IMG/VR virus record: IMGVR_UViG_3300028840_005080
Location: 1-64,000 of that record
Direction: 5' to 3' (one strand)
DNA: 64,000 bases
Origin: a virus
Shown: positions 5,658 through 34,917 of the stretch, one piece after another
How the letters are laid out: each line of letters begins with the position of its first letter
How positions within the stretch are numbered: position 1 is the stretch's first letter
Notes under the pieces: model-generated
Database searches by the model: none
Told to the model about the DNA's origin: nothing
What the model saw: only the letters and a program-made list of their open reading frames with translations
Program-made: the position numbers and the translations under genes

Positions 5658-5824
5658 TTCTCGCCTCTGTGCAAAATTCTTTCGCTCGTAACTTTGTATA
5701 CCGAAACTTCATCCGTTGTTATATTATTTCGGATATATTTCGCTTTTTCATAGGCTTTTAATTTTGTAGTGCATTCACCAAACAAATCTTTGCCTATGAA
5801 AACCTGATATTTAATTATTTTCAT
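5654..5824 (-). CDS. Small hypothetical protein
   Basis: Fifty-six residues starting KIIKYQVFIGKD, with a Lys-rich helix. It is part of a string of overlapping short genes. No family is recognised. Confidence 0.55.
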   Translation of the reverse strand: MKIIKYQVFIGKDLFGECTTKLKAYEKAKYIRNNITTDEVSVYKVTSERILHRGEK

Positions 5825-5859
5825 TCAAGATCTTTATTCCTGTTCCAAAAGATTCAAAT

Positions 5860-6000
5860 TCAAACAAAAAACAAATGCAAAATTGAATCCGTCATCATTG
5901 TTAAACAATATAGAAAAATCATTTTGCTTTTAAAGGCCGGTATAATATCTTTGTTTTTAATTCCAAATTTCGTTTCCACCATTTTAACAAAATAACCCAT
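5860..6000 (-). CDS. Small hydrophobic-ended protein
   Basis: Forty-six residues with a strong ribosome-binding site (AAAAAGGAG, then ATG). The C-terminal half is hydrophobic (FLYCLTMM and LHLFFV), so it may associate with membrane. First gene of the small cluster at 5338-6000. Confidence 0.55.
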   Translation of the reverse strand: MGYFVKMVETKFGIKNKDIIPAFKSKMIFLYCLTMMTDSILHLFFV

Positions 6001-6049
6001 TTCGTTCTCCTTTTTTTTAAATTATCATATAAAACATCATCTCATACTT

Positions 6050-6078
6050 CTTTCGAAAAATCAAGACAATTTCGAAAG
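6050..6078. repeat. Inverted repeat CTTTCGAAA / TTTCGAAAG
   Basis: Nine-base arms (6050-6058 and 6070-6078) separated by 11 bases, between the ATPase stop and the gene at 5860-6000. Each arm contains TTCGAA. It may be a paired operator or a hairpin; no T-run supports a terminator. Confidence 0.5.
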
Positions 6079-6108
6079 AATTCAAAATTTTTCAAATATC
6101 TGAAATCA

Positions 6109-7374
6109 CTAATTATTTTTGATATAAACTTTCTTTGGTCTGCCTTTCCCATTATAGATCATATCTTCTTTCGCCTGATCAAATTCTATCAATTTTTGTA
6201 TCGAACCATCAAGCTCATCTTTTGTAATCTTATTTTGAAATTTATGAAATAATTCCGTCCTCGAAACCTCTTTATTATTCTTCAAAATTTCAATTATTCT
6301 TTTTTCAAGAGGATTCAAACTATTTTCAAAACTTTCAAAACTTTCAAAATCATTTGAATCTTCTTCGTATTTTCCAGGAAGATCGTATTCAATCCAACCC
6401 TCTCCAAAATCGACCTCGGCTTTGTGCTTGGATTTGACTTTCGACAATCTGACTTTCGCATCTATTTGTTCGAATATATCATTTCTTCCATCAAATCCTG
6501 TTGATTTTGTTCTTTTTGAGTGAGTTGCAAAGCAAAAATTGAATCCGACTTTTCTACCTTCTGTGAAAAAACTATCGGTAAAATCACTTATAATGTCTTT
6601 GCATTTTCCAGGGATTCTTGTCCATTCGTCTGCAACAATTCTGACTGTTTCGAATTGAGGATTTCTTTGAGCTGAATAAATTCTGTATCTTTTGTCTATT
6701 TCGCTGAGTATCCATTTTAGTGCTGATTTTATTTCTTGATATTTTCTGCCTTTTCCGACTATCTGAACTTCCGGCCACTTCCCAATATGATCATGAGTGT
6801 CCAGAATAATCACTCTTTCCCATTTTCTATATTGGCTTACAAGATGTTTCAAAATCGTAGTTTTCCCGCTTTCCTGACCTCCGACTATCCATATTCGTGG
6901 CGTGCTTGAAAGAACATCAATGATATTTTTAGGCTTTTCAAACTCAATTTCAGGAAAACGTGTGCCTACATTGACATATTTTGGCTGTTTTTTTTGTTCA
7001 ATATTATCAGATACTTGACAAAAATCACCCCTATAAGGAATTTGATTGTTTTGTGTACCTACAGTATTTTGAACTAGTTCATTTGATCCAGGATGATATT
7101 GAATATTTTGAATGCCTTGAAAAGCACATATCTGATTAGTGATATTATCTTTCAATATCAATGTTTCGCCTGGGCTTGCCTTAAATGTCTGAATAGAATT
7201 TTTCCAACGTTCTGCTTCAATCTGATTTTTCTTTTCTTCGATCTCAAGGCAAGCCAAATCTGTTCTCGCCTTTCTCTCTGTTATCAAATATTTTTGGAAA
7301 AGAAAATATCGAAACAGATGAAAAACAATAATAATAATTATAATAGAAAATATAACCCAAGAAATTATAATCAT
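6109..7374 (-). CDS. Membrane-anchored FtsK/HerA-like ATPase
   Basis: A 421-residue protein with one N-terminal transmembrane segment (about 2-25), a charged linker to about 155, then a RecA-like motor. Walker A is GGQESGKTT (about 165-173), a following strand is VIILDTHDH, and Walker B is VRIVADEW (about 245-252). The last 70 residues resemble a winged helix, the same layout as FtsK motors with their gamma domain. It probably moves or anchors DNA at the membrane. A role in genome segregation, DNA entry or packaging is inference. Zot-like or VirD4-like ATPases are alternatives. Confidence 0.7.
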   Translation of the reverse strand: MIIISWVIFSIIIIIIVFHLFRYFLFQKYLITERKARTDLACLEIEEKKNQIEAERWKNSIQTFKASPGETLILKDNITNQICAFQGIQNIQYHPGSNELVQNTVGTQNNQIPYRGDFCQVSDNIEQKKQPKYVNVGTRFPEIEFEKPKNIIDVLSSTPRIWIVGGQESGKTTILKHLVSQYRKWERVIILDTHDHIGKWPEVQIVGKGRKYQEIKSALKWILSEIDKRYRIYSAQRNPQFETVRIVADEWTRIPGKCKDIISDFTDSFFTEGRKVGFNFCFATHSKRTKSTGFDGRNDIFEQIDAKVRLSKVKSKHKAEVDFGEGWIEYDLPGKYEEDSNDFESFESFENSLNPLEKRIIEILKNNKEVSRTELFHKFQNKITKDELDGSIQKLIEFDQAKEDMIYNGKGRPKKVYIKNN

Positions 7375-7420
7375 TCAACATATCGTTTCATTAATTGCCT
7401 GTAGCCGAACAAAGCAGGGA

Positions 7421-7687
7421 TCACCCCGTGTCTTTTTTTTTAAAAAACTTAAAAATTTTTTTCAAGCCAGAACACACATACAAATATGTTGGGCCACCTG
7501 AAACCCCGCCATTTTCAATATAACCACTTTTGATTAGCTTGCGAACATTGTCATCACAATCAGAACACCATTGACAACTTTTAGTCAAACAGGATCTATT
7601 GTAATATCGATACTGTGCGGCAATATCATTAGAATCACAGCCGGGATTATTTTGAATATGATTGATTGCAAATTTCTTAAAACTCAA
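7421..7687 (-). CDS. Cys-rich winged-helix-like protein
   Basis: An 88-residue protein with a likely TTG start after GGGG. It has a helix-turn-helix-like N-terminus, a CLTKSCQWCSDCDD cluster that could bind zinc, and a positively charged end. Possibly DNA-binding; not recognised. Confidence 0.55.
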   Translation of the reverse strand: MSFKKFAINHIQNNPGCDSNDIAAQYRYYNRSCLTKSCQWCSDCDDNVRKLIKSGYIENGGVSGGPTYLYVCSGLKKIFKFFKKKDTG

Positions 7688-7690
7688 TTT

Positions 7691-7873
7691 TTACCCCTTC
7701 CATCCCATAATAGAAATAATAATAGCAACAATAGAAAATATAAGTGCCATAAAATCAACAATAATATTCGTTCTTCTTTTCTCCGCTTTAAGCTCCGACA
7801 TAAGATATTTTATGACCTCCGCACTACTCACCATATCTTTCTTATCTTTTCCAATAATTCTTTTAATCGCCAT
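7691..7873 (-). CDS. Small C-tail-anchored membrane protein
   Basis: Sixty residues: a charged, basic N-terminal half and one C-terminal transmembrane helix (about 42-60). It overlaps the previous gene. A small membrane protein of this kind could be a holin accessory or a host-interaction factor. Nothing specific is recognised. Confidence 0.55.
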   Translation of the reverse strand: MAIKRIIGKDKKDMVSSAEVIKYLMSELKAEKRRTNIIVDFMALIFSIVAIIISIMGWKG

Positions 7874-8036
7874 TTTGTTCATTCTCTTTAACTTGTTCTA
7901 TCCTCATTTTAAATCCCGGTTTTTTTAAATGTTCGATATTATTATCAAATCTTATAACTTCATCCAGCGTTTTTTGTTTTCCGTCTGTTTGTTCTTTTTG
8001 ACCCGGAATTGTAAAAAAAAATAGAAACCTTTGCAT
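7863..8036 (-). CDS. Small hypothetical protein
   Basis: Fifty-seven residues with a good ribosome-binding site (GAAAGGA). A hydrophobic start (RFLFFFTIPG) is followed by a charged tail. It overlaps the next gene by 11 bp. Unknown. Confidence 0.6.
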   Translation of the reverse strand: MQRFLFFFTIPGQKEQTDGKQKTLDEVIRFDNNIEHLKKPGFKMRIEQVKENEQNGD

Positions 8037-8048
8037 TTAAATATCCTT

Positions 8049-8279
8049 TCATCGATTTTCTGTTTTTTTAAATTTTATAATAAAATTATTATCTTCTGAT
8101 ATCTCGCAATCGCTTGCGGCTCTCATAAGATCATCATCATCAAAACACAACAATCCGCTATCATTACCAAAATGCAATATATCCGCATTTATTCCATTAT
8201 TGCTAAGTGCGGAATTAATATCGTTCCCATTGACAGATTTCCAATATTTATCATTTATTAAAATATCGAATCTTTCCAT
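8049..8279 (-). CDS. Acidic protein, paralogue of 1741-1992
   Basis: Seventy-six residues starting MERFDIL. It shares the sequence pattern Trp-x-x-x-x-GN(D)I-SAL followed by GNDSG and an acidic run with the protein at 1741-1992. The start follows GAAGAGAG. Function unknown. Confidence 0.65.
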   Translation of the reverse strand: MERFDILINDKYWKSVNGNDINSALSNNGINADILHFGNDSGLLCFDDDDLMRAASDCEISEDNNFIIKFKKTENR

Positions 8280-8280
8280 T

Positions 8281-8457
8281 TTATATACTCTCTTCACTAT
8301 CAACCCAATGTCGAAAATCACTACCGTATTGCTCGTTCATCAATTCTGCAAAGTTTTCCGCATCTTTTTTTGTGTTAAACTCTGTCTTCCCTTTTGCCGG
8401 GCCTACAATCGAACACCATTTCATATACCATTTTTTATTTTTTTTCTTATCTTCCAT
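8281..8457 (-). CDS. Small hypothetical protein
   Basis: Fifty-eight residues, very Lys-rich at the N-terminus (EDKKKNKKW), then a mixed domain with GPAKGKTEF and an aromatic, acidic end. It lies 2 bp from its neighbours in a row of short genes. Unknown. Confidence 0.55.
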   Translation of the reverse strand: MEDKKKNKKWYMKWCSIVGPAKGKTEFNTKKDAENFAELMNEQYGSDFRHWVDSEESI

Positions 8458-8459
8458 TT

Positions 8460-8657
8460 CTACCACCATTCATTGTTGTAAAATTGCTCCAAGTATTCAT
8501 CATTCATTCCAAGAGTTTTTTCTTCTTTTATTTTACCAACAAGATCCCAATTTCTTTTTCCGTCAGGGCTTTTACATTCATCACAATAATCAAAACGTAA
8601 TTTTTTTTCTTCAAATTTAATACCTCTTTTCTCAGCACATTTTTCACAAATCTTCAT
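8460..8657 (-). CDS. Zinc-ribbon-like small protein
   Basis: Sixty-five residues with CEKC at residues 4-7 and CDEC at about 25-28, a typical four-Cys zinc ribbon. The C-terminus is acidic and aromatic. Function unknown. Confidence 0.6.
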   Translation of the reverse strand: MKICEKCAEKRGIKFEEKKLRFDYCDECKSPDGKRNWDLVGKIKEEKTLGMNDEYLEQFYNNEWW

Positions 8658-8660
8658 ATT

Positions 8661-9518
8661 TTACCTTTCAAATGAGCTATTTTTTGTAATAATTTCTTCT
8701 TTTGTAAAATCAACAAATTTCGAAAACATTTCAGGGTCATATAAACCATTTAAATATCTACCTCCTTTTTCAATCAATGCGTTATACCCTTGTGCTCCGA
8801 ATGCTATGTTAGAAATATTTTCGATACTATCAAGAAATCCAAACAAACTTTTATAATCAACTTTGACATTTTTCGCTCTGCCCATTTCAACCATCGGGAG
8901 TATCACAAAATATTCTACTTGATTTTTGAATTCGTTGTAAATTTTCTCAAAATATTTTACAGAATGCAAATCAAATATCAATATATGCAAATGACAGACT
9001 ATATCCCATTGATCTGCTATTCGTACCATCGCTTTCCATCTGTCTTCCATATGCTCATGAGCAGTAACAGCTATACCTCCGCACTTTTCTTTTGTCGCAG
9101 CAAGAATATCAGGATTCGAATGCGATACAAGAGATCCGTTTGTCGTGTAATTTGGAACGATCTTCATATCATAAAAAGTTTCAAGAATATCGATAAATTC
9201 CGAATGTGCTGTTGGCTCCCCTCCGCCTATTGCAACTTGAAATGGCATTTTATCTTTCGGCATTTCTTCAAAAAATAATTTAATTTTTTCGGGGAGGTTT
9301 TTTGGGTGATCTTCTGTTTCCTTTGAATCCTGATAACAATATGGGCATCTTCCGTCGCATACATTTGTTATTTTAACATCCCAAAACTCCGGATATTTTA
9401 ATGGAGTAACAGGCTTTTTATGATCAATTGGCATCCTTATTGTTTTGCCATTTGAGAATATCGCCCTATAATTACTTTCTTCGTCGATTCTTATTCTGTC
9501 AAAATTTTTAAAATCCAC
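8661..9518 (-). CDS. Radical SAM enzyme
   Basis: A 285-residue protein with the radical SAM iron-sulfur motif C54-x3-C58-x2-C61 (CDGRCPYC) and a GGGEP motif at about 98-102 that binds SAM. It is a short enzyme with no visible extra cluster domain. Its core resembles minimal radical SAM proteins such as QueE-like or peptide-modifying types, but the substrate cannot be read from sequence. The neighbours are small unknown genes, so no pathway is suggested. Together with the fused radical SAM at 15950 it makes two such enzymes in one phage. Confidence 0.85.
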   Translation of the reverse strand: MDFKNFDRIRIDEESNYRAIFSNGKTIRMPIDHKKPVTPLKYPEFWDVKITNVCDGRCPYCYQDSKETEDHPKNLPEKIKLFFEEMPKDKMPFQVAIGGGEPTAHSEFIDILETFYDMKIVPNYTTNGSLVSHSNPDILAATKEKCGGIAVTAHEHMEDRWKAMVRIADQWDIVCHLHILIFDLHSVKYFEKIYNEFKNQVEYFVILPMVEMGRAKNVKVDYKSLFGFLDSIENISNIAFGAQGYNALIEKGGRYLNGLYDPEMFSKFVDFTKEEIITKNSSFER

Positions 9519-9529
9519 TTTTCACCCCT

Positions 9530-10045
9530 TTAACTGTAATAATATTCAGCATCAATCATCCCAAAAATATAATCCATAAGATTTGCATCTTGATCCTTGT
9601 TTTTAGGAACAATATAAAATTCATCATCGTAATTCATATCAGAATCATTAAGGAAATCCCTTATTTTTTCGCTGTTCTTTATAAAAAATTGCCGAAATTT
9701 TTCTCTTTTATATTCCCAACGATCTTTCATATTTTTTGTTTCTTCTTCATATTCTGAAAAAAGTTCTTTGAGCTCGTTATTAAGTACATCTTCATCAAAA
9801 ATATCATAATCTTTGCTATGATATCTATCATCAATAATATCTAATACATATCCCATATTAGGATATGTATATACATCAAAAAGATCTTCGGCTTTTCTAT
9901 CACTTCCGGCAATTTGCAAAACAGCATTCAACATCTCAAATGCTTTTTCTTTATATCCTTCTTTTGCAATAAAATAAACATTCCCGCTGCTATTCATAGC
10001 CAATTCGGAAACGCTATGGATTTTAACAATCATATCTTTTCGCAT
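9530..10045 (-). CDS. Hypothetical acidic protein
   Basis: A 171-residue acidic protein starting with VKIHSVSEL-like strands, with a long charged middle. The ATG at 10045 follows AAAGGAG by eight bases. It shares a faint N-terminal pattern (I-x-x-IHS, later SS-x3-Y-x-I) with the next upstream product at 10059. Unknown. Confidence 0.65.
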   Translation of the reverse strand: MRKDMIVKIHSVSELAMNSSGNVYFIAKEGYKEKAFEMLNAVLQIAGSDRKAEDLFDVYTYPNMGYVLDIIDDRYHSKDYDIFDEDVLNNELKELFSEYEEETKNMKDRWEYKREKFRQFFIKNSEKIRDFLNDSDMNYDDEFYIVPKNKDQDANLMDYIFGMIDAEYYYS

Positions 10046-10058
10046 ATATCATTCTCCT

Positions 10059-10415
10059 TTACCCCAAATGAAATCTTTGACAAGTGAAAGTATCCATTAA
10101 AAATTCTTGAATCCACCAATGAATATCATTATCTTCAAAACGCAAAATTACGCCTTCTTCGATTATAATATTATCTTTAAATTCCTTATACCAATGCCCA
10201 AGTCCTTCTTTTGTTTTCCCATATTCAATTTGAAAAACTTCATCAAATTCAATTATCTTTTCATCATTTGCTTTTTCATAAAGCTCCAAAGCTAATTCAA
10301 TAATCTCGCGTATAAAATCAACGGAATGCTTTTTATCGAAAATATAAAATTCATCGCTGCTTGATGTTATCGTGCCTGCTATACTATGGATTGGAATAAT
10401 AAAAACAGAATTCAT
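10059..10415 (-). CDS. Hypothetical acidic protein
   Basis: A 118-residue protein, acidic, possibly distantly related to the product at 9530-10045 by its IHS start and strand pattern. It overlaps the next gene by 4 bp. Unknown. Confidence 0.6.
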   Translation of the reverse strand: MNSVFIIPIHSIAGTITSSSDEFYIFDKKHSVDFIREIIELALELYEKANDEKIIEFDEVFQIEYGKTKEGLGHWYKEFKDNIIIEEGVILRFEDNDIHWWIQEFLMDTFTCQRFHLG

Positions 10416-10606
10416 TTCTTTTCATCCTTTTCAAAACATTCCCAAACTATCGAATTATTATCTTTGATTCGCAAAAATATTTCCTCAATTATTTTATCAA
10501 TAGTTATCCTCTCTATATTATTACTTATTTCCCCTAATTTTTCAATAATCTTCCCAAACATATCCATAAACTTCTTAACATCTGCTTTTGTTATTTCTAT
10601 TTCCAT
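10412..10606 (-). CDS. Helical hypothetical protein
   Basis: Sixty-four residues predicted mostly helical. I choose the ATG at 10606 because GGAG lies eight bases upstream; a GTG at 10615 is also in frame. It follows the candidate small terminase gene directly. Confidence 0.55.
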   Translation of the reverse strand: MEIEITKADVKKFMDMFGKIIEKLGEISNNIERITIDKIIEEIFLRIKDNNSIVWECFEKDEKK

Positions 10607-10611
10607 ATCAC

Positions 10612-11451
10612 TCACTCCTCAATTAATTTCGTTTCTTCCACTTCGACTGCTTCAACAGGAAATTGTTTTACGAATCTTTGCATTAATTCATCTATTTGTT
10701 TGTTTTTTTCCTCTATCAATATTGGTTTATCTCCGCCTGACAAAACAACTTCGCTATGAGTAGGTTTTACATATCTGTCTCTGAATTCCTGTTTGTGTTG
10801 TAACATCCAAGCAGCCCATTTTGGTTCTGGCTTAACATGTATTTTACTTATTATTTTTTTTAGTTGTTTTTTCCCTTTTTCGTCTACAATGGTTTCTATT
10901 CTCTCATCAGGAATCTCATAACCCTTTATGGCATCCTCGATAATAGAAATATAGTAAGCCTCCTTATCAGCTATGGATTTATCGAGTGTAAGTATAAATT
11001 TTAATGCGTACTTTTCATCCTTCGAAAATTCTTTAATATTATCAGCTATTTGCAAAATATCAATTTTATCACCTGTAATTTTATTTTTCTCAATAAATTC
11101 AACAACTTTCAAATGTGTTTTTTCACCAAGTTTTTTATACCGTATCAAAGTCGATTCTGTGATACCAAGAAGAGTCGCCAGCCCCTTCCCTGAAAGCATC
11201 CCGCCAAATTTTTCAACCTTTTTTATCATATGGTGGTTTAATTTATTTTTTGTTTTTGCCGTTCTTGGTGCTGGTTTGTATTTTGTGCTTTTACTATAGT
11301 CCCAATTTTCCTCTTTAATAAATCTATAGATATCTGACGGATTTGCTTTATATTTTTTTGCCAATTCTCTTACAGAACTGAATTTTCCGTTTTTATCTCC
11401 GTTTTCAAATTCTTTTCTTATTTTTTGTATTTTTCTTTTTCTTGCTGTCAT
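10612..11451 (-). CDS. Candidate terminase small subunit
   Basis: A 279-residue protein with an N-terminal helix-turn-helix (SVRELAKKYKANPSDIYRFI), a second HTH-like part (LATLLGITESTLIRYKKLG) and a C-terminal segment KPEPKWAAWMLQHKQEFRDR. That tail pattern is common in phage small terminases that recognise packaging sites. The chosen ATG (11451) has GGAAG upstream and overlaps the previous stop. It lies far from terL and on the other strand, so the assignment rests on the fold pattern only. A transcription regulator is the main alternative. Confidence 0.55.
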   Translation of the reverse strand: MTARKRKIQKIRKEFENGDKNGKFSSVRELAKKYKANPSDIYRFIKEENWDYSKSTKYKPAPRTAKTKNKLNHHMIKKVEKFGGMLSGKGLATLLGITESTLIRYKKLGEKTHLKVVEFIEKNKITGDKIDILQIADNIKEFSKDEKYALKFILTLDKSIADKEAYYISIIEDAIKGYEIPDERIETIVDEKGKKQLKKIISKIHVKPEPKWAAWMLQHKQEFRDRYVKPTHSEVVLSGGDKPILIEEKNKQIDELMQRFVKQFPVEAVEVEETKLIEE

Positions 11452-11552
11452 AAAAGATCTTCCGGACATATTTCTTGATAAATAAAATGAGAATAAATAT
11501 CGTCCAATAAAACTTCTATAAAATCATAATCTTCAACTTTTTCTTCGCTCAT
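11448..11552 (-). CDS. Short acidic ORF (34 aa)
   Basis: Acidic peptide (SEEKVEDYD, LLDDIY) whose stop overlaps the ATG of the small-terminase candidate (ATGA), which supports translation. An in-frame ATG at 11591 would add 13 residues. Unknown function; perhaps translational coupling. Confidence 0.5.
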   Translation of the reverse strand: MSEEKVEDYDFIEVLLDDIYSHFIYQEICPEDLL

Positions 11553-11640
11553 ATCTCTTTCGAAATAATGTGAATATTCCGAACTTGCCATCCGTATTCT
11601 GTTTTTTTACTTCACAAATTTTTCCAATTTTCCAATTATT

Positions 11641-12021
11641 TCACCAATCTTTCCATATATCCTGTCTTTTTTCTCTTAATTTCTTCGACTCAGCAATCCA
11701 ATCAACCAAATCATTTTTAACATCTGTTTTTATGCAATAATTCAACATAATATTTTCTTTTTCCGTATAATAATCTGTTAATTTTAAATTAAGTTCGTTT
11801 ATATTATCTGTTATTCTGTCAATCTCTTTGTCTATTTTATCATATTTATCATGCTCATTTTCCTGTATCAAATCCAATTCTTTATACAGTTCTTCTACTT
11901 GTTTTTTCTTCGAATTAATCAAATTAAATATAGATTCAACATCTATATTCAATTTATCATAAACATCATCCTGAACTGCGAATTCCCCTAATTCTAATTT
12001 TATTATCTTTAATGATTTCAT
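11641..12021 (-). CDS. Coiled-coil protein
   Basis: About 126 residues, with a long heptad-like region from about 30 to 90 rich in Lys, Glu and Leu. It ends in a Trp-containing basic tail. The chosen ATG gives SLKIIKLELGE as the first strand. Function unknown. Confidence 0.6.
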   Translation of the reverse strand: MKSLKIIKLELGEFAVQDDVYDKLNIDVESIFNLINSKKKQVEELYKELDLIQENEHDKYDKIDKEIDRITDNINELNLKLTDYYTEKENIMLNYCIKTDVKNDLVDWIAESKKLREKRQDIWKDW

Positions 12022-12096
12022 ATTTCCAGATTTATATCCCAAAACGCTCTTGATCTGCCGTCATCAATTCTCATATTTCAAAATAGTCCAAACACT

Positions 12097-12330
12097 TTAA
12101 CCAACCTTCAATTCTATCGCTATATTTGGTTTTCTTAAAATTTTCAATGTTTTTCTATATTTAAATTTCTTTTTTCTTAATGTATATTTATATTCTCCCA
12201 AACCACATTTTTTACAATAAACAATATCTGTAATTTTTCCTTGCAAATCATATGATCTTACATAATTTTCAAAATCATAATCATGTCTGCAAAAAAACAC
12301 TTGAAGTAATGTTGGTTCACCCCTTACCAT
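12097..12330 (-). CDS. Zinc-binding small protein
   Basis: Seventy-seven residues with CRHDYDF and, later, YCKKCGLGEY, which together resemble a split zinc ribbon. The C-terminus is strongly basic. It overlaps the preceding gene end. Possibly nucleic-acid binding. Confidence 0.55.
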   Translation of the reverse strand: MVRGEPTLLQVFFCRHDYDFENYVRSYDLQGKITDIVYCKKCGLGEYKYTLRKKKFKYRKTLKILRKPNIAIELKVG

Positions 12331-12335
12331 TTTTC

Positions 12336-12542
12336 TCAATCTTTCAAAATTTTTTCGATTCTGCTTAAAGAATGGTTTGCATCTTTTGCTTCTGTTCTTT
12401 TGATTATTTCATCAATTTCTCTTGCTTTTTTCGGATCATGTTTTTTGGCAATACTTGAGGCAACCAAAAACGTCATATAAGAAATATTTGGCAATTTGAT
12501 TATTTCTCTTATTATTTTTTTTCTTTCACCAATTTTTCCCAT
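12336..12542 (-). CDS. Helical hypothetical protein
   Basis: Sixty-eight residues, charged and helical, starting GKIGERKKI. No family is recognised. Confidence 0.55.
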   Translation of the reverse strand: MGKIGERKKIIREIIKLPNISYMTFLVASSIAKKHDPKKAREIDEIIKRTEAKDANHSLSRIEKILKD

Positions 12543-12571
12543 GTTTACCAAGATCCTTCGCTTATTCAGTT

Positions 12572-12708
12572 TCCAATATCCCTTTTATTAATTCTCCAAA
12601 ACGAGAAGATGTGAAAAAACTCATCATAAATTCTTTAAATTCATATTTGTTATTAATTCCAGAACATATAGATTCAATATACTCTTTATCTTGAAACTTT
12701 TTCGCTTA
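12572..12708 (-). other. In-frame extension after TAA of the kinase gene
   Basis: Immediately after the TAA of the gene at 12706-13755 the same frame stays open for 45 codons (FQDKEYIESICSG onward). No good start codon lies within it except a late ATG ATG. It may be the former C-terminus of that protein cut off by a stop mutation, or a stop codon that is read through. Confidence 0.35.
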
Positions 12709-13755
12709 ATAACCTTTCAATTTGTCATGCATTGATTTATACCATACCTCCAATTCCGATGCCATTTCCACTATTGTTTTCCCTCCGTCAATATAATTTT
12801 TTTCTATATAATCCTCTATCGACTCATACCCAAGCAATATCGATTTGCCATTCCAATCAATTCGATCTTTTTTTAACGGAATAAATTTTTTTGTTTTTTC
12901 TATTATTGTTTTTTTATCAATCCCTATAAGATCTGATAATTTTTCTGCGGATTGATCTTTTTCATAATACTCACACCAAAGCATATCTGAGACAGTTTCA
13001 TATCCAAGTTTTTCCGATATATCCTTCCATTCATCGTAGCTTATCGGTTTTCTGCCACTATTTCTGTATTCTGATATTTTTTTTTCGAAATCCGATACAC
13101 CGAGGCAATTTTTGAGATAGTGAGCGCATCCGATAATCACATAATCATCCGCAGCCAGCATAATATTCGCCCCGCACCATTCGCATTTTATTATATTTTG
13201 TTTATTCGTTACCATAGATAGAATTGAATCCTTTTGTTCCATTTCCGTCATTTTTTCACTCCGTTCCAACCATTTAATGAAACTTTTCGCTTCCTGTTCA
13301 AGTTCTTTAATCGATCCGTAATTATCAACAATATAATCATAATATGTCATTTTTACAGACATATCAGCCCCGTTATTCGCTGGTTTTGAATTCATTCTAT
13401 CTATTAGCAAAACTACAGAATTGTATTTATCAACAATCTTTTTTATTTCTTTTGGCTCTCTACAATGGATAAATACAATATAATTCTCGCAATTCTTAAT
13501 TTCATCAATCATACTGCAAGCATTACAAAAAGGGATATCATTGTATTCGATTGCGAGTTTTTTAAGATCATAAATCAATTTTCTTGTTTTATCATCTTTT
13601 TTCACTCCATTCCATCCGTAATAAATTTTCGTAATTTCTTTATAATCTTTCGCCGTGTCTATTTCAAAAATATTTTGTGACAATCCTTTTGCTTTTTTTA
13701 CGAATTCATTTTTTCCTACGCCATTATATCCGTTTATTATTACTATTTTTTTCAT
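12706..13755 (-). CDS. P-loop kinase fused to zinc and HTH-like parts
   Basis: A 349-residue protein. The N-terminal 170 residues resemble a nucleotide kinase, with P-loop NGYNGVGKNEF (about 8-18). They also have a lid-like region around IHCREP and DRMNSKPA, as in phage deoxynucleotide kinases. In the middle, CEWCGANI and a nearby CAHYLKNC suggest a zinc site. The C-terminal 140 residues hold homing-endonuclease or plant-type HTH-like repeats (ISYDEWKDISEKLG; IVEMASELEV). The fusion is unusual. It may link nucleotide metabolism to DNA binding, but that is inference. Confidence 0.6.
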   Translation of the reverse strand: MKKIVIINGYNGVGKNEFVKKAKGLSQNIFEIDTAKDYKEITKIYYGWNGVKKDDKTRKLIYDLKKLAIEYNDIPFCNACSMIDEIKNCENYIVFIHCREPKEIKKIVDKYNSVVLLIDRMNSKPANNGADMSVKMTYYDYIVDNYGSIKELEQEAKSFIKWLERSEKMTEMEQKDSILSMVTNKQNIIKCEWCGANIMLAADDYVIIGCAHYLKNCLGVSDFEKKISEYRNSGRKPISYDEWKDISEKLGYETVSDMLWCEYYEKDQSAEKLSDLIGIDKKTIIEKTKKFIPLKKDRIDWNGKSILLGYESIEDYIEKNYIDGGKTIVEMASELEVWYKSMHDKLKGY

Positions 13756-14508: not shown

Positions 14509-14994
14509 TCAACATATTTTTCCACCATGCCTTTTCGATCTCGTCTTATTATATCTATGCTTTTCAAGAATTATTTTATGGATATCAACATTTTTGTTAA
14601 AACAAAAATTTTCTATATCACACAAAATCTGAGTAACATACTCGCTTTTTGTCAAATTTTTGTAACTTCTCATAAATTCATCCATATAGTCAAACCAATC
14701 AATAATAAAACAACTATTTTTATGATGAGAATAATCATCAGTTTTTACATCCACATTATAAAATCCCGCAATATCAAGAGCTCTTATAGAAATATCAGCC
14801 AATTCCACATAAAATCCGCAAGGTTTTTTGTCTTCATAATATGTTTCAAAATTCCCCTTTCTATACTCTTCAAAAGCCTCAAACAATTCTGATTTAACAA
14901 GAAATACCAATTCTTTCATTTCTCGTTTTTTATCATACCAACCTTTTTCAACCGCCAAATCATGAACTTCTTTTTTAAACAAATTGTAGTTCAT
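14509..14994 (-). CDS. MazG-like nucleotide pyrophosphohydrolase
   Basis: A 161-residue all-helical protein. The metal-binding helix SELFEAFEEYRKGN (about 33-46) and a later helix with ELADISIRALD (about 64-74) give the ExxE and ExxD pattern of MazG-like dNTP/NTP pyrophosphatases. The C-terminus HRYNKTRSKRHGGK is typical of phage members. Such enzymes sanitise nucleotide pools or lower host alarmone levels. It overlaps the methyltransferase gene by 20 bp, so nucleotide and DNA modification genes are co-transcribed. Confidence 0.75.
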   Translation of the reverse strand: MNYNLFKKEVHDLAVEKGWYDKKREMKELVFLVKSELFEAFEEYRKGNFETYYEDKKPCGFYVELADISIRALDIAGFYNVDVKTDDYSHHKNSCFIIDWFDYMDEFMRSYKNLTKSEYVTQILCDIENFCFNKNVDIHKIILEKHRYNKTRSKRHGGKIC

Positions 14995-15937
14995 TTTTAC
15001 TCCTTTCGTTTTTAATTTTAACTGCTTTTTTACAGTTTTTTACAGCAACTTTATAATAACTCTCTTTCAATTCGCTCCCAATAGCTTTTCTATTCATTAA
15101 TATAGCCTGATAAGCGAATGTACCTATACCAACAAAAGGATCGAAAATAATATCTCCCTCGTTTGTATACATTTCAATCAATCTTTCACAAACATCCAAT
15201 TGTAACGGAGCTATATGTTTATCATCGTCTTTATCTCTCCCTTCTTTTGTTTCAAGAGTACGTGTTTGTCTTATATCCCACCAAATTCCCGCATATCTTT
15301 GGAATCTGTTATGACTCAGCTTGTTGTGTCTTTGTTCGCTGTCGTATTTTCCTAACGGATCAAATCTTTCATCACCGATCCAATTCAAATATCCTTGTTT
15401 GTGTGCTACCGGTTTTTTATTTTCGCCGGGTTTTTTCATAACTATAAGAAAATCATTGCGCCCAAAACCTATCATAACAGAATCTTTTACAACTTGTTTG
15501 TGAGCCAATTTTATATTTTTAGTTCTTACTGCCTCAATAAGCGGATCTTTCCAGATTACACACTCAGTAAAAAATATAAAGCCAGCTTTCTCAAACAAAT
15601 GTATCAAATCACCTCTTAGATCTTTTGTTCCTATATATCCATGATGCTCTTTTGTAAGATTTGTGTTCTGTATATGAAAAACCAAATTTCTTCCTGGCTC
15701 AAGTATTCTGTAAAGATCCTTTATCATGAAATTAAAATGATTAAAAAATTCGTCATCTGTAACGCTGTTTCCCATATCTCTAACAGAATTACTATACGTA
15801 AACAACGATGAAAACGGAGGAGAAAACCCTATAAACCCAACGCTATTTTCCGGCAATCCTTTACAAACTTCGACGCTATCGCCATGATAAATAGCAAAAT
15901 CATCTGTCGCTTTTTGGTTTATTACATTTACTTTCAT
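14975..15937 (-). CDS. DNA N4/N6 methyltransferase
   Basis: A 320-residue methylase of the beta class. The catalytic motif SPPF (about 39-42, a DPPY variant; S at position one favours N4-cytosine but does not prove it) comes before the SAM-binding motif DPFVGIGTFAY (about 265-275). A DISTRICTLY phage-like extra is none; the length is usual. It sits with the SNF2-type helicase at 18272, an arrangement that recalls the methylase and helicase parts of the P1 antirestriction protein DarB. It probably protects phage DNA from host restriction. Confidence 0.85.
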   Translation of the reverse strand: MKVNVINQKATDDFAIYHGDSVEVCKGLPENSVGFIGFSPPFSSLFTYSNSVRDMGNSVTDDEFFNHFNFMIKDLYRILEPGRNLVFHIQNTNLTKEHHGYIGTKDLRGDLIHLFEKAGFIFFTECVIWKDPLIEAVRTKNIKLAHKQVVKDSVMIGFGRNDFLIVMKKPGENKKPVAHKQGYLNWIGDERFDPLGKYDSEQRHNKLSHNRFQRYAGIWWDIRQTRTLETKEGRDKDDDKHIAPLQLDVCERLIEMYTNEGDIIFDPFVGIGTFAYQAILMNRKAIGSELKESYYKVAVKNCKKAVKIKNERSKNELQFV

Positions 15938-15949
15938 TTTTTTACTCCT

Positions 15950-18034
15950 TTATTCGCGTTTTTTATTGTACTTATAGACAATGTTGCCGTTTTCATCCAA
16001 ACTTTCAGGCGTCATAATCCCTTCAAAAATTTTATACGGAGACAAACTATGATCCGGATTATTCCACAAAAAATGCAAGAAATCTTTTATTGTAAAACCA
16101 TGATACATCGCTCTTGTTTCGCATTTTTCATTAAACAAAGCGTATTTTACATTTTCAAAATGGACCATCTCGCATGAAATATCATCCCAGCCAACCCTTT
16201 TATTATCTTTACATAATAAAACCGCATTACAAAAATGGCCTTTGCAGAAATTAAAATTTTCAGGAACGCCGCAACAACAAGAATGATATGATTTTTCTTT
16301 AAAATGACAATCACTTACAAACAATTTTATATTTTTCGATTCGCATAATTGCCTAATGTCTTCAACAACATCTCTTTTTATATTTCTATTCAATCTTAAC
16401 GGACTGCCTTTATTTGAGGTAAACGTTTTATAAAAATTTGCAATGTCGTAACCTGATATATCACATAAAATTTTATAATTTTCTTTTGTGATTCTGTAAT
16501 CAAAACAAAAAAATTCAAGACTAACAGAATCAATACCACTATCAACCGCTCTGCTTATAAGCTCCTTATGATTGTCAGATACGCCATATATATACGGCCT
16601 CAATCTCAATGTTATTCCGCCAGGATTTAATTTTGCGATATTTTCAATTGCTTTTAATCTTTTTTTTGGTGACGGGGCTCTTTTTTCTAAAAATGCTGCT
16701 TTTTTTTCATTTGTTGTTATTAAAGTGAATTTTACATGAAAATTTTTATTATTTTTAAAAAAATTTATATATCTCTCATCCTCTGACCACCAAAAAGATT
16801 TAGTAGAAAATGAGATTTGATAGTCAAGTTCGTTTCTAAAAAAATCAATAAGTTCAAGGCCAATTCCATATTTTTTCTCAAAATTACAAAACGGATCGGA
16901 CAAACCGCCCCATTGCAATGCTTTTTTGTTTTTTATGAATTCGGAATATTGAGTTTTGGTTTTATTTCTAAAAATCCTTTTCACTGCTTCAACATTTACA
17001 TAATTCGCGATTTTGTTTATATAATCCTCTCTCCCTTTGCCTTTTATCAGCATTCTTTGGTATTGCGAAAAACAATAAACGCAAGAATAAAAACAATTTG
17101 AATATTGATCAAAAGTTAGTGGCAACGCGCAATCAACGGCTTCTGATGACCATCTCGGACTACTATAAAATTTTTGTTTCTTCTTTTTTTCTTTTATAAC
17201 AATATTTGATTTAAAATTATTTCTCCAATTTTCTATTTGTTTCCTTGAATGAAATCTCATTCTTAAATCCGTACCATCAACAAACCCCTTTCTTTTTTTA
17301 ATACAAAACAAACCAGGATATGTATTCATTAATTTTTTAACATCTTTTAGTCTGTGTTCTACTCTCTCATCATATATTCCCATTCCCCCTTTTTCATAAT
17401 GTCCTGATATAGGATGTATAAAATTATTTATTAAAACAACTCCGAATCTTAATAGATGATCTGCCGTATTTCTGAAATCTTCCATTGTTATCGTATGATC
17501 CCAAGTTAATTGATCATTTTTAATCAGAATCAACTTGCCTATGCAATAACCAACAAATCTGTATTTTTTCGCTCTGAAGTAAAAATTTGGTGTTGTTGCA
17601 AAAGAACACATTCTAACGTTGTTTTTTTCAGAAATTTCAATCATCTCTTTGCATTTTTCAATAAAAATATCTACACAACACTCGTTTGAAAAAACAGAGC
17701 TCCAATATTTATTATCTTTTATTCTTTCAAAATCGATTTTTTCCGTATTATAATATTCATCCGACACACAACTAATATTTTTGATGTTATCATCCGCAAA
17801 CACAAACCATTCATCTTTTTCAACAAGATTTTCTGTCACAAATTCTCTTTGCCTCGTTAATCCAAATTGATCCGTTTTTGCATTTGATATTATCAGATTT
17901 TTTTTTCTAATTGATGGATTGGAACGATACAAATCGTATTGTTCTTTGTTATGCACTATTATTTTTGCTTTTGGAAAAATTTTATGTGTAGAAATTGTAT
18001 CGTATCTGTTGTATGTAGGTATGAAAAATTTCAT
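15950..18034 (-). CDS. Glycosyltransferase-radical SAM fusion
   Basis: A 694-residue two-domain protein. Residues 1-280 look like a GT-A glycosyltransferase: FFIPTYNRYDT at the start, LTRQREFV (59-66) and a metal-binding-like ADDN (80-83). They resemble the glycosyltransferases seen with DNA base-oxidising enzymes in phages. Residues 290-680 look like a spore-photoproduct-lyase-type radical SAM domain with C314-x3-C318-x2-C321, WGGLSDPF, and many C-terminal Cys (CCCG region near 590) that may hold another cluster or zinc. Base modification of phage DNA is the leading inference. It lies between a DNA methylase and an SNF2-type helicase. Confidence 0.8.
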   Translation of the reverse strand: MKFFIPTYNRYDTISTHKIFPKAKIIVHNKEQYDLYRSNPSIRKKNLIISNAKTDQFGLTRQREFVTENLVEKDEWFVFADDNIKNISCVSDEYYNTEKIDFERIKDNKYWSSVFSNECCVDIFIEKCKEMIEISEKNNVRMCSFATTPNFYFRAKKYRFVGYCIGKLILIKNDQLTWDHTITMEDFRNTADHLLRFGVVLINNFIHPISGHYEKGGMGIYDERVEHRLKDVKKLMNTYPGLFCIKKRKGFVDGTDLRMRFHSRKQIENWRNNFKSNIVIKEKKKKQKFYSSPRWSSEAVDCALPLTFDQYSNCFYSCVYCFSQYQRMLIKGKGREDYINKIANYVNVEAVKRIFRNKTKTQYSEFIKNKKALQWGGLSDPFCNFEKKYGIGLELIDFFRNELDYQISFSTKSFWWSEDERYINFFKNNKNFHVKFTLITTNEKKAAFLEKRAPSPKKRLKAIENIAKLNPGGITLRLRPYIYGVSDNHKELISRAVDSGIDSVSLEFFCFDYRITKENYKILCDISGYDIANFYKTFTSNKGSPLRLNRNIKRDVVEDIRQLCESKNIKLFVSDCHFKEKSYHSCCCGVPENFNFCKGHFCNAVLLCKDNKRVGWDDISCEMVHFENVKYALFNEKCETRAMYHGFTIKDFLHFLWNNPDHSLSPYKIFEGIMTPESLDENGNIVYKYNKKRE

Positions 18035-18255
18035 TTTTTCTCCTTATTCATTTCAGAAAACGAATATATAACTTTTTTCCCATCTATCCCCAAGATTTTC
18101 ATGTAATATTCTTTTTCCTTATCATTCGACCAAACAAGAACAAATCTTCCATTCCTTGTATCCTTCCCTTTTACTTTTGGTTTTTCTAATTTTTCAGGAT
18201 AGTATTTTTCAGGATATCCGAATATATACGAGTTATAGAAAAATTTTTTATCCAT
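18031..18255 (-). CDS. Small hypothetical protein
   Basis: Seventy-four residues starting DKKFFYNSYIFGY, with GGAGG before the ATG. It overlaps the fusion gene start by 4 bp (ATGA type), so it is made with it. The sequence is basic with an SH3-like strand pattern. A role with the fusion enzyme is only suggested by position. Confidence 0.6.
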   Translation of the reverse strand: MDKKFFYNSYIFGYPEKYYPEKLEKPKVKGKDTRNGRFVLVWSNDKEKEYYMKILGIDGKKVIYSFSEMNKEKK

Positions 18256-28690: not shown

Positions 28691-29179
28691 TTAAATTTTT
28701 TTCACATCTCTATATTCGCAAAAAATGTTTTTATATTCGTCTGTCTTTTTCAGATATTCCAAACACTCCTTGTCTTCAATTTCAAATCTGTGGAGTTTGC
28801 AGACAATTTGAAAAAACAATCGTCTGTCTATTTTTGCTGCAAAACTCCCGCACCATAACGGAAGGCATGAAAAATCCAAATCAGCCCCACGCAAATCAGC
28901 CCCACGCAAATCAGCCCCGGACAAATCAGCCCCGGACAAATCAGCCCGACTCAAATCAGCCCCGGACAAATCAGCCTCTGACAAATCAGCCCGACTCAAA
29001 TCAGCCCGACTCAAATCAGCCTCTGACAAATCAGCCCCGGACAAATCAGCCCGACTCAAATCAGCCTCTGACAAATTAGCCCCGGACAACTTTGGGATTA
29101 TATTCCAATTTTCAAATCTCCATTTATTCCACTTATCAACCCCGCTTTTCAAAATTTTCAAATATTCTGAATTTGCCAT
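28691..29179 (-). CDS. Pentapeptide-repeat protein 1
   Basis: About 162 residues. A conserved N-terminus ([19 protein letters not shown]) is followed by about 15 ADLSx/ANLSx pentapeptides (about 34-100) that should form a right-handed beta helix, then a Cys-containing tail. Such helices mimic DNA and can bind gyrase (Qnr, MfpA) or block restriction enzymes. It lies between the clamp loader and polymerase genes. The ATG follows AAAAGGAG. Confidence 0.85.
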
Positions 29180-29201
29180 TTTCAATCTCCTTTTTTTGAT
29201 T

Positions 29202-32200
29202 TTACTTCCATTCTTTGAATTTTGCAACAAATTTTTTTATCCCTTTGTTGAAAAAACCTTTATTTGCTCTGTCATATAAAACACTTGCCGGATGAATACA
29301 AAAAACAACCCATGCGGCAATTTTATCAATCCACAAGCATTCACCTGATTTTCTTTTAATGCCGTAGTTTTCGTTTAGAAAATATTTCAAAGTAGTGGCG
29401 CCACATGCCAAAACAAGTCGACACTTAGAATCTCTAATTTCTTTTTGCAAATACTCTCCGCATTTCAAAATATGATGATCTTCCGGTTTTCTTATTCTTC
29501 CGTTGATCTTTCCGGGATAACACTTGCATATATTTGAAATGTGAAAATGCTTTTTTGAACACCCATATTTTTTTAATTCATCCCATAAAACCCTTCCGGC
29601 TCTTCCAACAAACCCAACGCCTTCTTTATCTTCATCCGGACCCGGCGCTTCTCCGACAACGAAAACATTGTATTTCCCTATTGATGGTTGAACAATTTGA
29701 TTTGCAATTTTGCTCAATTCGCATCTCTTACAACTTGCAAAATCATGACCTTTAAATTTTGTTTTTGTTATCAATTCGCATTCGCATTCCGGCGTCAAAA
29801 TCCCTTTTCTTATATCATCATAATCCTTTTGAAACCAATTATCACCAATTATCGAATTCAAATTTTTATATTTATCATTTGAAACCTTAAAGCCGAAATA
29901 TTTTTCATTTTTTTCATTCCATCCCTCGTCTATCCGCCTTGCTCCGACTTCATACAAAATTTTATCTTCGGCGGTATTTGTATCTTCCGCAACATAAAAT
30001 CCGCTTGGAATCTCATATTTCATTTTCGAAAACTTTTTGGCAAGAACCGGACCTGCTTTGTCGATTTCGATAAAAGGAGTGTATATTTTATCTCCTTTTG
30101 TAACCCATTTTTTCGCATCGGATATGCCTATTTTTGGTGGCATAATTTTTAACCCAAGATCGCCAACCATATTTATAAAATCTTGTTTGTCTTTGTCGTT
30201 TTCCGAATACATCAACGATGCGGATGCAAATTCGGCAGGATAATAATATTTTAACCACATCATTTGATATGAAATATAGGAATATGCCAAAGAATGCGAA
30301 AGATTGAATGCATATCCTCCAAACTCTTTGATTTCATTCCATAGATTAGTTGCTTTCTTACTTCCGATGCGTTTCCCAGCACCTTCTATGAATTTTTGCT
30401 CATATTTGTATAATTCACTGCCAGCGGATTTTGATATTAATTTTATAATTTTGTACGATTCTGATAAAGATATCCCGGCAAGCTCATGACATAACATCAT
30501 TACCTGTTCTTGATATATTATTGTTCCAAACGTCTCTTTTATTATATTATCTACTATTTTATTTCCTGTTTTGAAAATCTTTCTTTTATTCTTTCCTTGT
30601 TCGTATCTGTCAACAACGCCTCCTCTTAACGGACCTGGACGGCACATTGCGTTTACCGCATAAATATGTTCAAATTTTGTTGGTTTAATTTTTTTAAGAA
30701 TTCCGGTTTGAAGATCCGAATTAGCTTGCATTATCCCAGATGTATTGCCATTTGCGAATTCCGAAATTACTTTCTTGTCATTTGGTTCTATGGAATCTAT
30801 ATCTATTTCGATATTTTTATTTTCTTTTATTAATCCCAAAGTTTCGTCAATAACGGATAATGTTGAAAGTCCAAGAAAATCGAACTTTATCAATCCCATT
30901 CGCTCACAATATTTTTTATCCCAACATACACTAATTTCACCTTTTGTTTTTATAAGAGCGCACCTGTCACTTGTTTTTATATCTTCGTTCGCAAAAACAA
31001 ATCCCGCAGCATGTTGTCCATAATTTCTTATTGTTCCTTCAAGTTTTTTGCAATATTTGACTATTTCAGGATATTTTTCATTAAATTCGCGACCTTCGTA
31101 TGTTTCATCAATCGTCTTTTGAATTGCGTTTTCTGTTTTGTCATCAATAGCTTTTGTAAATTTGTCTACTTCTTTAAGCGGAATGTTAAAAACTCTTGAA
31201 ACATCTCTGACAACACCTCTCGCCTTCATTCTTGAAAAAGTTGGAATAGAAACAGCATCCCCGAATTTTAGTCTTGCATATTTTATAACCTTCGATCTTT
31301 TTTCAGGAGCAAAATCAACATCAATATCGGGCCACGCATCTCTTTTTTCATCGAGGAACCTTTCAAACATCATCTCGTATTTTACAGGATCGAGTTCTTT
31401 GGCAGTGATTCCTATCAAATTCGCAACCAAACTTCCCGAAACGCTACCTCTTCCAGGCCCTACAGGAATACCGTTTTTTTTACAATAATTTACAACATCT
31501 TCGACGATTAAAAAATAATTACTAAACCCCTTTTTTGATATTACACCAAGTTCCCTTTCAATTCTTTCTTTGTATATTTTTTTATTAGGGAGTTTTTTGT
31601 ATACCAACTCTCTCAGTTTTTCATCCGGATTTTCGCATACATCCGGCAATGAAATTTCTCTTTGTTCGAATCTGAAATTGCATTTTTCAATAATTTCCTG
31701 TGTATTGTTTATTGCTCTTTTTGCTTGTTTTTTTGATAATATTTCTTGTTTTTTAAAATCTTGTAAAACTTCAAGCGCTGTTTTCAAATGAGAACTATCG
31801 AATTTCCATCTGTTCGGATCATTCCAAGTTTTACCAGATTGAATTGCCAGCATAATTTCCTGGATTATCTTTTCATCTTCGTTAATATAGTGACAATCGC
31901 ATGAGGCAACTAATTTTGTATTGCATAATTCAAGACATTTTAAATTAACATATTTCTGAATATCCAAATCATGCGCCTGAACTTCATAATAAAAATCATC
32001 TTTTAATCTGTTACTTAATTCAACATGAAAATTTTTTACATTATCATTCCAATTATAGTCGGAAAGATAACTACTCGCACATCCGGATAAAATTACAAGC
32101 CCTTCGCAATGATTCAAAACGGTTTCAAAATCTGCTCTTGGACGTTTGTAATATCCCTCCAAATTTGATTTTGAAATGATATTACATAAATTTGCCCAAC

Positions 32201-32495
32201 CTTTTTTATTTTTTACAAGACAAGTCAGATGATATCGTTTTTCCTTGCCTATTTTTTTATACATATTTTCGACAAGATATAACTCGCATCCGTGAATAGC
32301 TTTTATATCTTGCTTATCGCACTCATCCTGAAACTCGATAAGACCGGAAACACCTCCATGATTTGTCAATGCAAGCGCTCCAAATCCAAGTTCTTTTACT
32401 CTTTTTGCATAGTTTTTTGCAGATCCGAAACCATCTAAAAGACTATGTTCGTTATGTACATGCAGATGGGTGAAATTCATATTTATTTTTTCCAT
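29202..32495 (-). CDS. dnaE: DNA polymerase III alpha fused to family-4 UDG
   Basis: About 1097 residues. An N-terminal PHP domain has HLHVHNEHS and SCDCHYI. The polymerase domain has [10 protein letters not shown], the catalytic pair in PDIDVDF and the third Asp in KFDFLGL. Past about residue 920 the sequence is a family-4 uracil-DNA glycosylase: [31 protein letters not shown], a further Cys and HPASVL. The usual DnaE C-terminal OB and tau-binding parts are missing. The polymerase would carry its own uracil-removing iron-sulfur domain. The start used is the ATG of [10 protein letters not shown]; an inner ATG is also possible. Confidence 0.95.
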
Positions 32496-32502
32496 ATCAT
32501 TC

Positions 32503-32637
32503 TTACATCTCGATAGTATCAAGTACGGATTGCATTGTTTTTATCAATTTTCTGAATTCCGCAACACTTAGATTTTGTGACAATCACAAATCATGCTTTG
32601 AACGTTGTTTGAACACAATCGTCGGTATCTTTTTCAT
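32503..32637 (-). other. Leader ORF interrupted by in-frame TGA
   Basis: An ATG at 32637 (GGAG nine bases upstream) opens a 17-codon ORF (KKIPTIVFKQRSKHDL). It ends at TGA (32584-32586), after which the same frame runs 26 more codons to TAA, just before dnaE. The TGA lies in a perfect stem TTTGTGA-TTG-TCACAAA. It could be two coupled leader peptides (restart at TTG) or a readthrough site. Confidence 0.4.
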
Positions 32638-34065: not shown

Positions 34066-34093
34066 ATTATATATATGTTTTTGAGATTGTCAA
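34066..34093 (-). promoter_or_regulatory. Promoter of the clamp/polymerase operon
   Basis: TTGACA (34088-34093) overlaps the last codons of the pentapeptide gene; 16 bases further is TATAAT (34066-34071). It starts the transcript carrying the structured leader, dnaN and dnaE. Confidence 0.8.
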
Positions 34094-34917
34094 TATTTAA
34101 GAGCTTCTTCATAAGTCATAAAAAAATGAATTCCATCAGAACATTCAGTTTTCGGATTATTATCATAGTTATCCGCTTTGACATACTTCCCAACAATATA
34201 TCGCAATTCCGGCCTAATCGATCCTGTAGATTCTTTTTTTATTTTCCCGTTTTCATCTTTAATTTCAATAACAAAGGCATATTCGGATCTACATTTTCTT
34301 CCAATCAAACTTGATGTTCTTCTTGAAAAAGCAGGGATCCTTAATTTTATTATATCTTCATCCCTTCCTTTTTTCCAACAATGAAATTCTCCATATGTCG
34401 GGCAAATTTTATAATCAGGCAAATCAGCCTCGAACAAATCAGCCCCGAACAAATCAGCCCCGAACAAATTAGCCTCGGACAAATTAGCCCGTCTCAAATA
34501 AGCCTCGGACAAATCAGCACATCTCAAATCAGCCTCGAACAAATCAGCCTCGAACAAATTAGCCTCGGACAAATTAGCCTCGAACAAATAAGCCTCAGAC
34601 AAATCAGCCCGTCTCAAATCAGCCTTGGACAAATCAGCCCGTCTCAAATCAGCCTCGGACAAATCAGCCCATCTCAAATCAGCCCCAAACAAATTAGCCT
34701 CAGGCAAATCAGCCTCGGACAAATCAGCCCATCTCAAATCAGCCCCAAACAAATTAGCCTCAGGCAAATCAGCCTCGGACAAATTGACATTATACAAATC
34801 AGCCTTGGACAAATAAGCCTTGGACAAATCTATAATTATACCCGGATTTTTCATCCTAAATTCATTCCATTTTTTTACTCCGCTTTTCAAAATTTCCAAA
34901 TGTTCTTGATTTGCCAT
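34090..34917 (-). CDS. Pentapeptide-repeat protein 2
   Basis: A 275-residue protein with the same N-terminus type as the one at 28691 (ANQEHLEILKSGVKKWNEF), then about 25 pentapeptides such as LSEADLFGADLRWADL (about 30-165). A C-terminal domain of about 100 residues ends HFFMTYEEALKY, a domain often attached to such repeats in phages and cyanobacteria. It may mimic DNA to protect against gyrase inhibitors or nucleases. The ATG follows AAAAAGGAG. Confidence 0.85.
   Translation of the reverse strand: MANQEHLEILKSGVKKWNEFRMKNPGIIIDLSKAYLSKADLYNVNLSEADLPEANLFGADLRWADLSEADLPEANLFGADLRWADLSEADLRRADLSKADLRRADLSEAYLFEANLSEANLFEADLFEADLRCADLSEAYLRRANLSEANLFGADLFGADLFEADLPDYKICPTYGEFHCWKKGRDEDIIKLRIPAFSRRTSSLIGRKCRSEYAFVIEIKDENGKIKKESTGSIRPELRYIVGKYVKADNYDNNPKTECSDGIHFFMTYEEALKY

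Follow-up and report, generated by a model that had tools for sequence, protein, structure and literature searches.

The gene at 15950..18034 (minus strand) joins, in one uninterrupted 694-residue reading frame as originally predicted, a TAGT-like glycosyltransferase to a radical SAM domain with the fold of spore photoproduct lyase (SPL), and it is likely to encode a bifunctional phage enzyme that hypermodifies the bases of the phage's own DNA, by a chemistry that we infer from its parts. The gene lies in a window of 64,000 nucleotides from an uncultured phage, positions 1-64,000 of the 87,412-base virus record IMGVR_UViG_3300028840_005080, and was assigned from its open reading frame and domain matches. 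The evidence behind this reading consists of the domains and their folds, the catalytic residues that are conserved, the genes found in association and the fusion itself; DNA as the substrate, the identity of the base, the sequence of the steps and a protective role are predicted from it. Against it, TAGT-like and radical SAM enzymes can also act on non-DNA substrates, and the fusion is a single case. The family to which the radical SAM half belongs is a larger find than the singleton fusion, and probably decorates phage DNA bases.

Architecture of the fusion protein

Profile searches and structure prediction for each half, the checks proposed with the original prediction, returned a TAGT-type GT-A glycosyltransferase and an SPL-fold radical SAM domain. 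The glycosyltransferase half with its lysine-rich linker (residues 1-287; 17174..18034, minus strand) contains the LTRQREFV and ADDN motifs on which a GT-A assignment of residues 1-280 had been made. Searched alone, residues 1 to ∼280 match Pfam TAGT (PF20691) with an E-value of 5.5e-6, and the half also matches phrog_842, a beta-glucosyl-HMC-alpha-glucosyltransferase (E 3.6e-6). The TAGT score is 21.6 bits for the full protein, 26.9 for the domain alone and 28.1 when neighboring in-frame matches are included, against a Pfam cut-off of 27.5. The AlphaFold2 model (pLDDT 79) finds GT-A enzymes in Foldseek, and the putative metal/nucleotide-sugar motif Asp82-Asp83 (17786..17791, minus strand) is conserved in 19 homologues, with D82 invariant and D83 nearly so. 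A family profile of the glycosyltransferase matches the wall-teichoic-acid glycosyltransferase TarS at 4e-6. The E-value of a glycosyltransferase profile for the window protein itself is circular, the window sequence having been in the seed, and was excluded as evidence. The TAGT enzyme of T2/T6 adds a second glucose onto glucosylated hmC (PMC13216743; PMC13390438). On sequence and model, the assignment of this half as a TAGT-like GT-A glycosyltransferase holds, with transfer to a base-linked group in DNA as its predicted activity.

The radical SAM half comprises the last 407 residues (288-694; 15953..17173, minus strand). It matches PF04055 with an E-value of 1.3e-4 (22.6 bits, under the Pfam cut-off of 29.5) and the NCBIfam PA0069/Rv2578c radical SAM model at 2.8e-11, although a score of 42-43 bits against a cut-off of 360 places it outside the PA0069 family. 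The C-x3-C-x2-C motif (C314, C318 and C321; 17072..17095, minus strand), the expected [4Fe-4S]/SAM site, is invariant in 36 of 36 homologues. AlphaFold2 run on these 36 sequences gave a pLDDT of 94 and a pTM of 0.92 for this half, and the best five Foldseek matches of the model in the PDB are all SPL (E 4e-8 to 8e-7); a PDB sequence search with the whole fusion protein returned no match. The motif and the predicted radical SAM barrel together place the half in the radical SAM superfamily.

The earlier description of this half as SPL-like was right for the motif and the fold, but the catalytic residues differ. In SPL, Cys140 is the hydrogen donor, and the PDB titles of the matched SPL entries name C140 and Y98 mutants. 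The SPL segment FEAA(C140)TSD, which reads FEAASTSD in the crystallized C140S mutant, aligns with QWGGLSD of the fusion's family, so that the equivalent of Cys140 (GtSPL numbering) is Gly377 (G90 of the domain); the position is Gly in 35 of 36 members and Ser in the other, in an alignment made through a natural SPL homologue at an hhalign probability of only 24% and anchored by the S-D pair that follows. The equivalent of SPL Tyr98, after the third cluster Cys, is Phe in all 36 rows. Because it has neither Cys140 nor Tyr98, the half does not appear to be an SPL-type lyase, and on these sequence grounds "photoproduct lyase" is its ancestry and not its activity. The family's own invariants, numbered as in the fusion, are Cys302, Arg477, Arg479, Glu507, Asp575 and Trp657; 35 of 36 members also have the pair Cys587-Cys588.

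Genes around the fusion

A strong Shine-Dalgarno sequence, AAGGAG (18040..18045, minus strand), stands 5 nt ahead of the fusion's ATG, which is overlapped by the stop of a 74-residue open reading frame (18031..18255, minus strand; ATGA). The flanking DNA methylase, SNF2-type helicase and MazG-like enzyme named in the original prediction were all recovered by profile searches, each on the minus strand: an N4/N6 methyltransferase whose gene follows the fusion after 12 bp (14975..15937; PF01555, 2.1e-22), a MazG-like nucleotide pyrophosphatase whose gene overlaps that of the methylase (14509..14994; phrog_9236, 2.1e-24) and an SNF2-type helicase with homologues in 316 phage records (18272..19651; PF00176, 4.3e-8). 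The 12-bp gap and the methylase/MazG overlap suggest that fusion, methylase and MazG-like genes form one transcript. A possible deoxynucleoside monophosphate kinase (12706..13755, minus strand; a weak phrog_139 match, 1.6e-7) could activate a modified dNMP.

Elsewhere in the window, also on the minus strand, are a DNA polymerase III alpha subunit whose C-terminus carries a uracil-DNA-glycosylase domain (29202-32522; PF03167, 3e-22), an odd combination for a phage in which uracil may be modified, a further radical SAM gene outside the fusion's family (8661-9518; PF04055, 6.5e-11) and two pentapeptide-repeat proteins, one with DUF5758, that are possible DNA mimics (28691-29230 and 34090-34917).

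Partners of the radical SAM family in viral loci

An alignment-based scan recovered 56 viral loci with a member of the radical SAM family, 41 of them distinct, and in all of these except the window it is a separate gene. A glycosyltransferase (TAGT or GT4) lies within several genes of it at 26 of the 41 loci, the window's fused domain included; TAGT occurs in 17 neighborhoods and GT4-like enzymes in others. Six further loci have the amino-acid:DNA transferase ADDT or a P-loop kinase and no glycosyltransferase (26 and 6 are hand tallies). ParB-like genes are present at 23 loci, a second, SPASM-type radical SAM gene at 10, a sliding-clamp-like gene and a small conserved protein at 12 each, and TET at two (L005 and L007). 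TAGT was found in 20 of 43 records bearing the radical SAM gene and in none of 37 control viral contigs picked by random 16-mer (Fisher 2.7e-7; 6e-6 for records of at least 15 kb). Along the radical SAM tree the TAGT partner type changes at least seven times: the transferases come and go around a radical SAM protein that stays. Among the 19 records of at least 40 kb, 14 have neither TET nor a member of the thymidylate-synthase (TS) family (PF00303), and 13 of these 14 carry a glycosyltransferase or ADDT; most records with the radical SAM gene are fragments, and absence of TET or TS weighs little. Searches of named phage genomes gave no close relative.

The hypermodification pathway proposed from the window alone gains support from homologues beside TAGT, TET, ADDT, ParB and other modification genes and from the lack of TAGT in random contigs. 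Radical SAM enzymes do have a precedent in the hypermodification of phage DNA: M6-type thymidine hypermodification uses radical SAM isomerases.

Several loci are of interest in themselves. TAGT, PIG-L deacetylase and radical SAM genes are consecutive in L001, where the PIG-L GlcNAc deacetylase (5689-6294) hints at an amino sugar on DNA. L005 (5764-11328) and L007 have a TET-ParB-radical SAM-TAGT-SPASM radical SAM-cupin cluster, and the phage record has no C5-cytosine methylase, so TET may act on thymine there. In L050 (6713-9161) and L056 (6490-9263) the gene is broken into several open reading frames by an intein-like sequence (C-terminal VHN-C) at a radical SAM motif cysteine, the third in L050 and the first in L056; the middle frame of L050 resembles, by eye, a Vsr-type endonuclease. 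The gene in L027 (7995-9242) and L028 has 19 in-frame TGA codons at family glycines; in this phage TGA seems to be translated as Gly (code 25), and a Gracilibacteria/SR1 host is probable. L004, a 677-residue protein considered as a second fusion, was rejected, its N-terminal part being a GC-rich spurious extension with no glycosyltransferase similarity.

Relatives in bacterial genomes

Bacterial genome contigs supplied 26 loci, and at 23 of them a ParB-like gene lies directly upstream of the radical SAM gene (hand tally). These relatives are shorter (339 residues in L071 and 337 in L072), and the searched flanks of the 26 loci gave no profile match to TAGT, ADDT or TET; a GT4-like gene is present in two contigs, L062 and L063. 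The gene order is ParB, ParB, radical SAM, terminase small, terminase large and portal in L071, and ParB, radical SAM, terminase small and terminase large in L072, with L085 similar. These three loci (∼6800-13000) are Firmicutes prophages with a ParB-radical SAM-terminase order, L072 belonging to C. hydrogeniformans and L085 to Faecalibacterium, and offer a cultivable route to the modification. The ParB protein corresponds to the N-terminal domain of phage ParB-methylase fusions (phrog_498), and the phage cytosine carboxymethyltransferase CmoX is likewise accompanied by ParBc genes (PMC12783734). The ParB association and terminase adjacency indicate that the radical SAM gene occupies the usual position of a DNA methylase. 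Of all the evidence this speaks most strongly for action of the enzyme on DNA, perhaps without any sugar.

A possible source of the modified base

TET, ADDT (PF18724), C5-cytosine methylase and ThyX were not detectable in the 87,412-base record, which is possibly incomplete. The glycosyltransferase had been linked to base oxidation, but no TET accompanies it in this record. Outside the window, at 65299-66006 of the record, lies a TS homologue that is 56% identical to the TS of an ADDT-bearing phage with the radical SAM gene. It has Asn at the equivalent of position 177, which specifies dUMP by the rule that Asn here selects this substrate (PMC8670742). This enzyme is possibly a source of 5hmdU and could simply make dTMP. 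Given a dUMP-type TS homologue, adjoining radical SAM, ParB and GT4 genes and no TET, the likeliest substrate in the window phage, as judged from gene content, would be a 5hmdU-derived base. The same region forms a second modification-like cluster (L059, 1299-11603; 65.3-75.6 kb of the record) with the TS homologue, methyltransferases, a short SPL-like radical SAM gene, a ParB-like gene and several glycosyltransferase-like genes, including a GT4-like one; the ParB gene is ∼51 kb from the fusion.

Discussion

In the mechanism that we favor, ParB-like proteins or the glycosyltransferase half would place the enzyme on DNA, and the radical SAM half would use its [4Fe-4S] cluster and SAM to generate a 5'-deoxyadenosyl radical. 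This radical would strip a hydrogen off a DNA pyrimidine, or off the first group attached to it, to create a new functional group, and the glycosyltransferase half would move a sugar from a nucleotide-sugar to the position so made or to a pre-existing hydroxymethyl. The starting base in the window phage would most likely be 5-hydroxymethyluracil, supplied by way of the TS homologue at 65.3 kb of the record. In most relatives the two activities fall to separate neighboring genes, which are frequently accompanied by a ParB-like protein, the probable guide of the enzyme to DNA, and resistance of the decorated DNA to host nucleases is the likely purpose. Two orders are compatible with this scheme: the radical SAM step may come first, as base-level chemistry, or the glycosyltransferase may act first and the radical SAM enzyme reshape the sugar.

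That the radical SAM protein acts second, on a sugar or amino acid which a transferase has already attached (isomerization, epimerization or dehydration), is possible though doubtful, and the probability of this reading overlaps with that of hypermodification as a whole, of which it is a finer-grained version. The radical SAM protein of M6 is distantly homologous (hhalign probability 96.9, E 1.9e-10), although the similarity is only at superfamily level; ADDT and a P-loop kinase at some loci and the PIG-L deacetylase between glycosyltransferase and radical SAM genes in L001 would also suit this order, and the fusion makes channeling of a single substrate plausible. However, one radical SAM family pairs with chemically unrelated transferases, and the shorter relatives in bacterial genomes have ParB and flanks free of TAGT, ADDT and TET matches, from which no attached group seems to be needed.

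The converse proposal, that the family is an oxygen-independent, ParB-guided enzyme that functionalizes the base directly in DNA, is tentative and rather unlikely as a specific claim. Hydrogen could be taken, for example, from the thymine 5-methyl to give a 5-methylene radical, the species quenched by the Cys of SPL, which with no Cys here would be free for hydroxylation or coupling; the resulting handle would be decorated by glycosyltransferases or amino-acid transferases, in place of TET or a hydroxymethylase. The 14 of 19 longer records lacking TET and TS, 13 of them with a glycosyltransferase or ADDT, support this proposal, as does the pairing of shorter relatives with ParB where TAGT, ADDT and TET were not detected nearby.

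It is improbable that the cassette modifies a non-DNA target such as surface glycans, tRNA or capsid protein. General sugar-nucleotide genes at some loci and the resemblance of the glycosyltransferase fold to the wall-teichoic-acid enzymes TarS and TarP would fit such a target, but the neighbors (ParB, TET, ADDT, DNA methylase and terminase) all handle DNA, and characterized TAGT enzymes work on glucosylated hmC in DNA.

Still less probably, the fusion is an assembly error that merged two adjacent genes arranged as in other phages. It is found in the window record only, among ∼41 viral loci, the linker DNA at the junction is A-rich, and a near-identical contig (L061) stops within the glycosyltransferase half, so that the junction is backed by one assembly only. 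Against this, the frame is continuous through 694 codons and the junction DNA has no start codon near the radical SAM domain, which could therefore not easily be a separate gene. The association of sugar transfer with radical SAM chemistry stands regardless.

That this is a DNA-repair enzyme, a phage-borne photoproduct or lesion lyase fused to a glycosyltransferase by chance, is very improbable, for although the fold is nearest to SPL and the Fe-S motif is kept, the hydrogen-donor Cys and Tyr98 are replaced throughout the family and the adjoining genes serve modification, not repair.

DNA hypermodification, as the preferred reading, would make the radical SAM family a widespread and apparently undescribed class around which phage DNA-modification cassettes are built, with ParB as its partner and sugar or amino-acid transferases as variable additions. 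Through the fusion, sugar transfer and radical chemistry would become parts of a single pathway, in a two-in-one enzyme amenable to assay. Any new base modification would matter for restriction evasion, for how sequencers read phage DNA and for oxygen-free C-H functionalization of DNA. Hypermodification is already known to employ TAGT-type glycosyltransferases and, separately, radical SAM enzymes; the glycosyltransferase-radical SAM fusion, the ParB-radical SAM core and the exchange of transferases were not found in a literature search that had key papers outside its reach.

Comparison with known systems

The radical SAM half shares with SplB its fold, the C-x3-C-x2-C motif and a Tyr ahead of the third Cys, but it differs in Cys140 and Tyr98, in an additional C-terminal part, where an Asp is invariant and the Cys-Cys pair is found in 35/36, and in having modification genes as neighbors. 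The PA0069/Rv2578c families (NCBIfam) are its best sequence-family match, over ∼200 residues, yet it scores 30-60 bits against cut-offs of 360-430. The glycosyltransferase half resembles TAGT (PF20691; the T2/T6 beta-glucosyl-HMC-alpha-glucosyltransferase) in its GT-A fold, conserved Asp pair and similar length, with borderline Pfam membership; unlike the T2/T6 enzyme it is fused to a radical SAM domain, in a record with no detected TET or dCMP hydroxymethylase (Asp177 type). TET/TAGT cytosine hypermodification relies on a TET/JBP dioxygenase, which is absent from the 87,412-base, possibly incomplete record. ParB-methyltransferase and ParB-CmoX phage modules (PMC12783734) likewise set a ParB-like partner beside a DNA-modifying enzyme, but here that enzyme is a radical SAM protein, not a methyl- or carboxymethyltransferase. 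M6, whose DNA contains 5-(2-aminoethyl)deoxyuridine derived from 5hmdU (PMC6449724), is alike in being a hypermodifying phage with a distantly homologous, SPL-like radical SAM protein; its type of pathway uses an amino-acid:DNA transferase (PF18724), none of which was detected in the window record.
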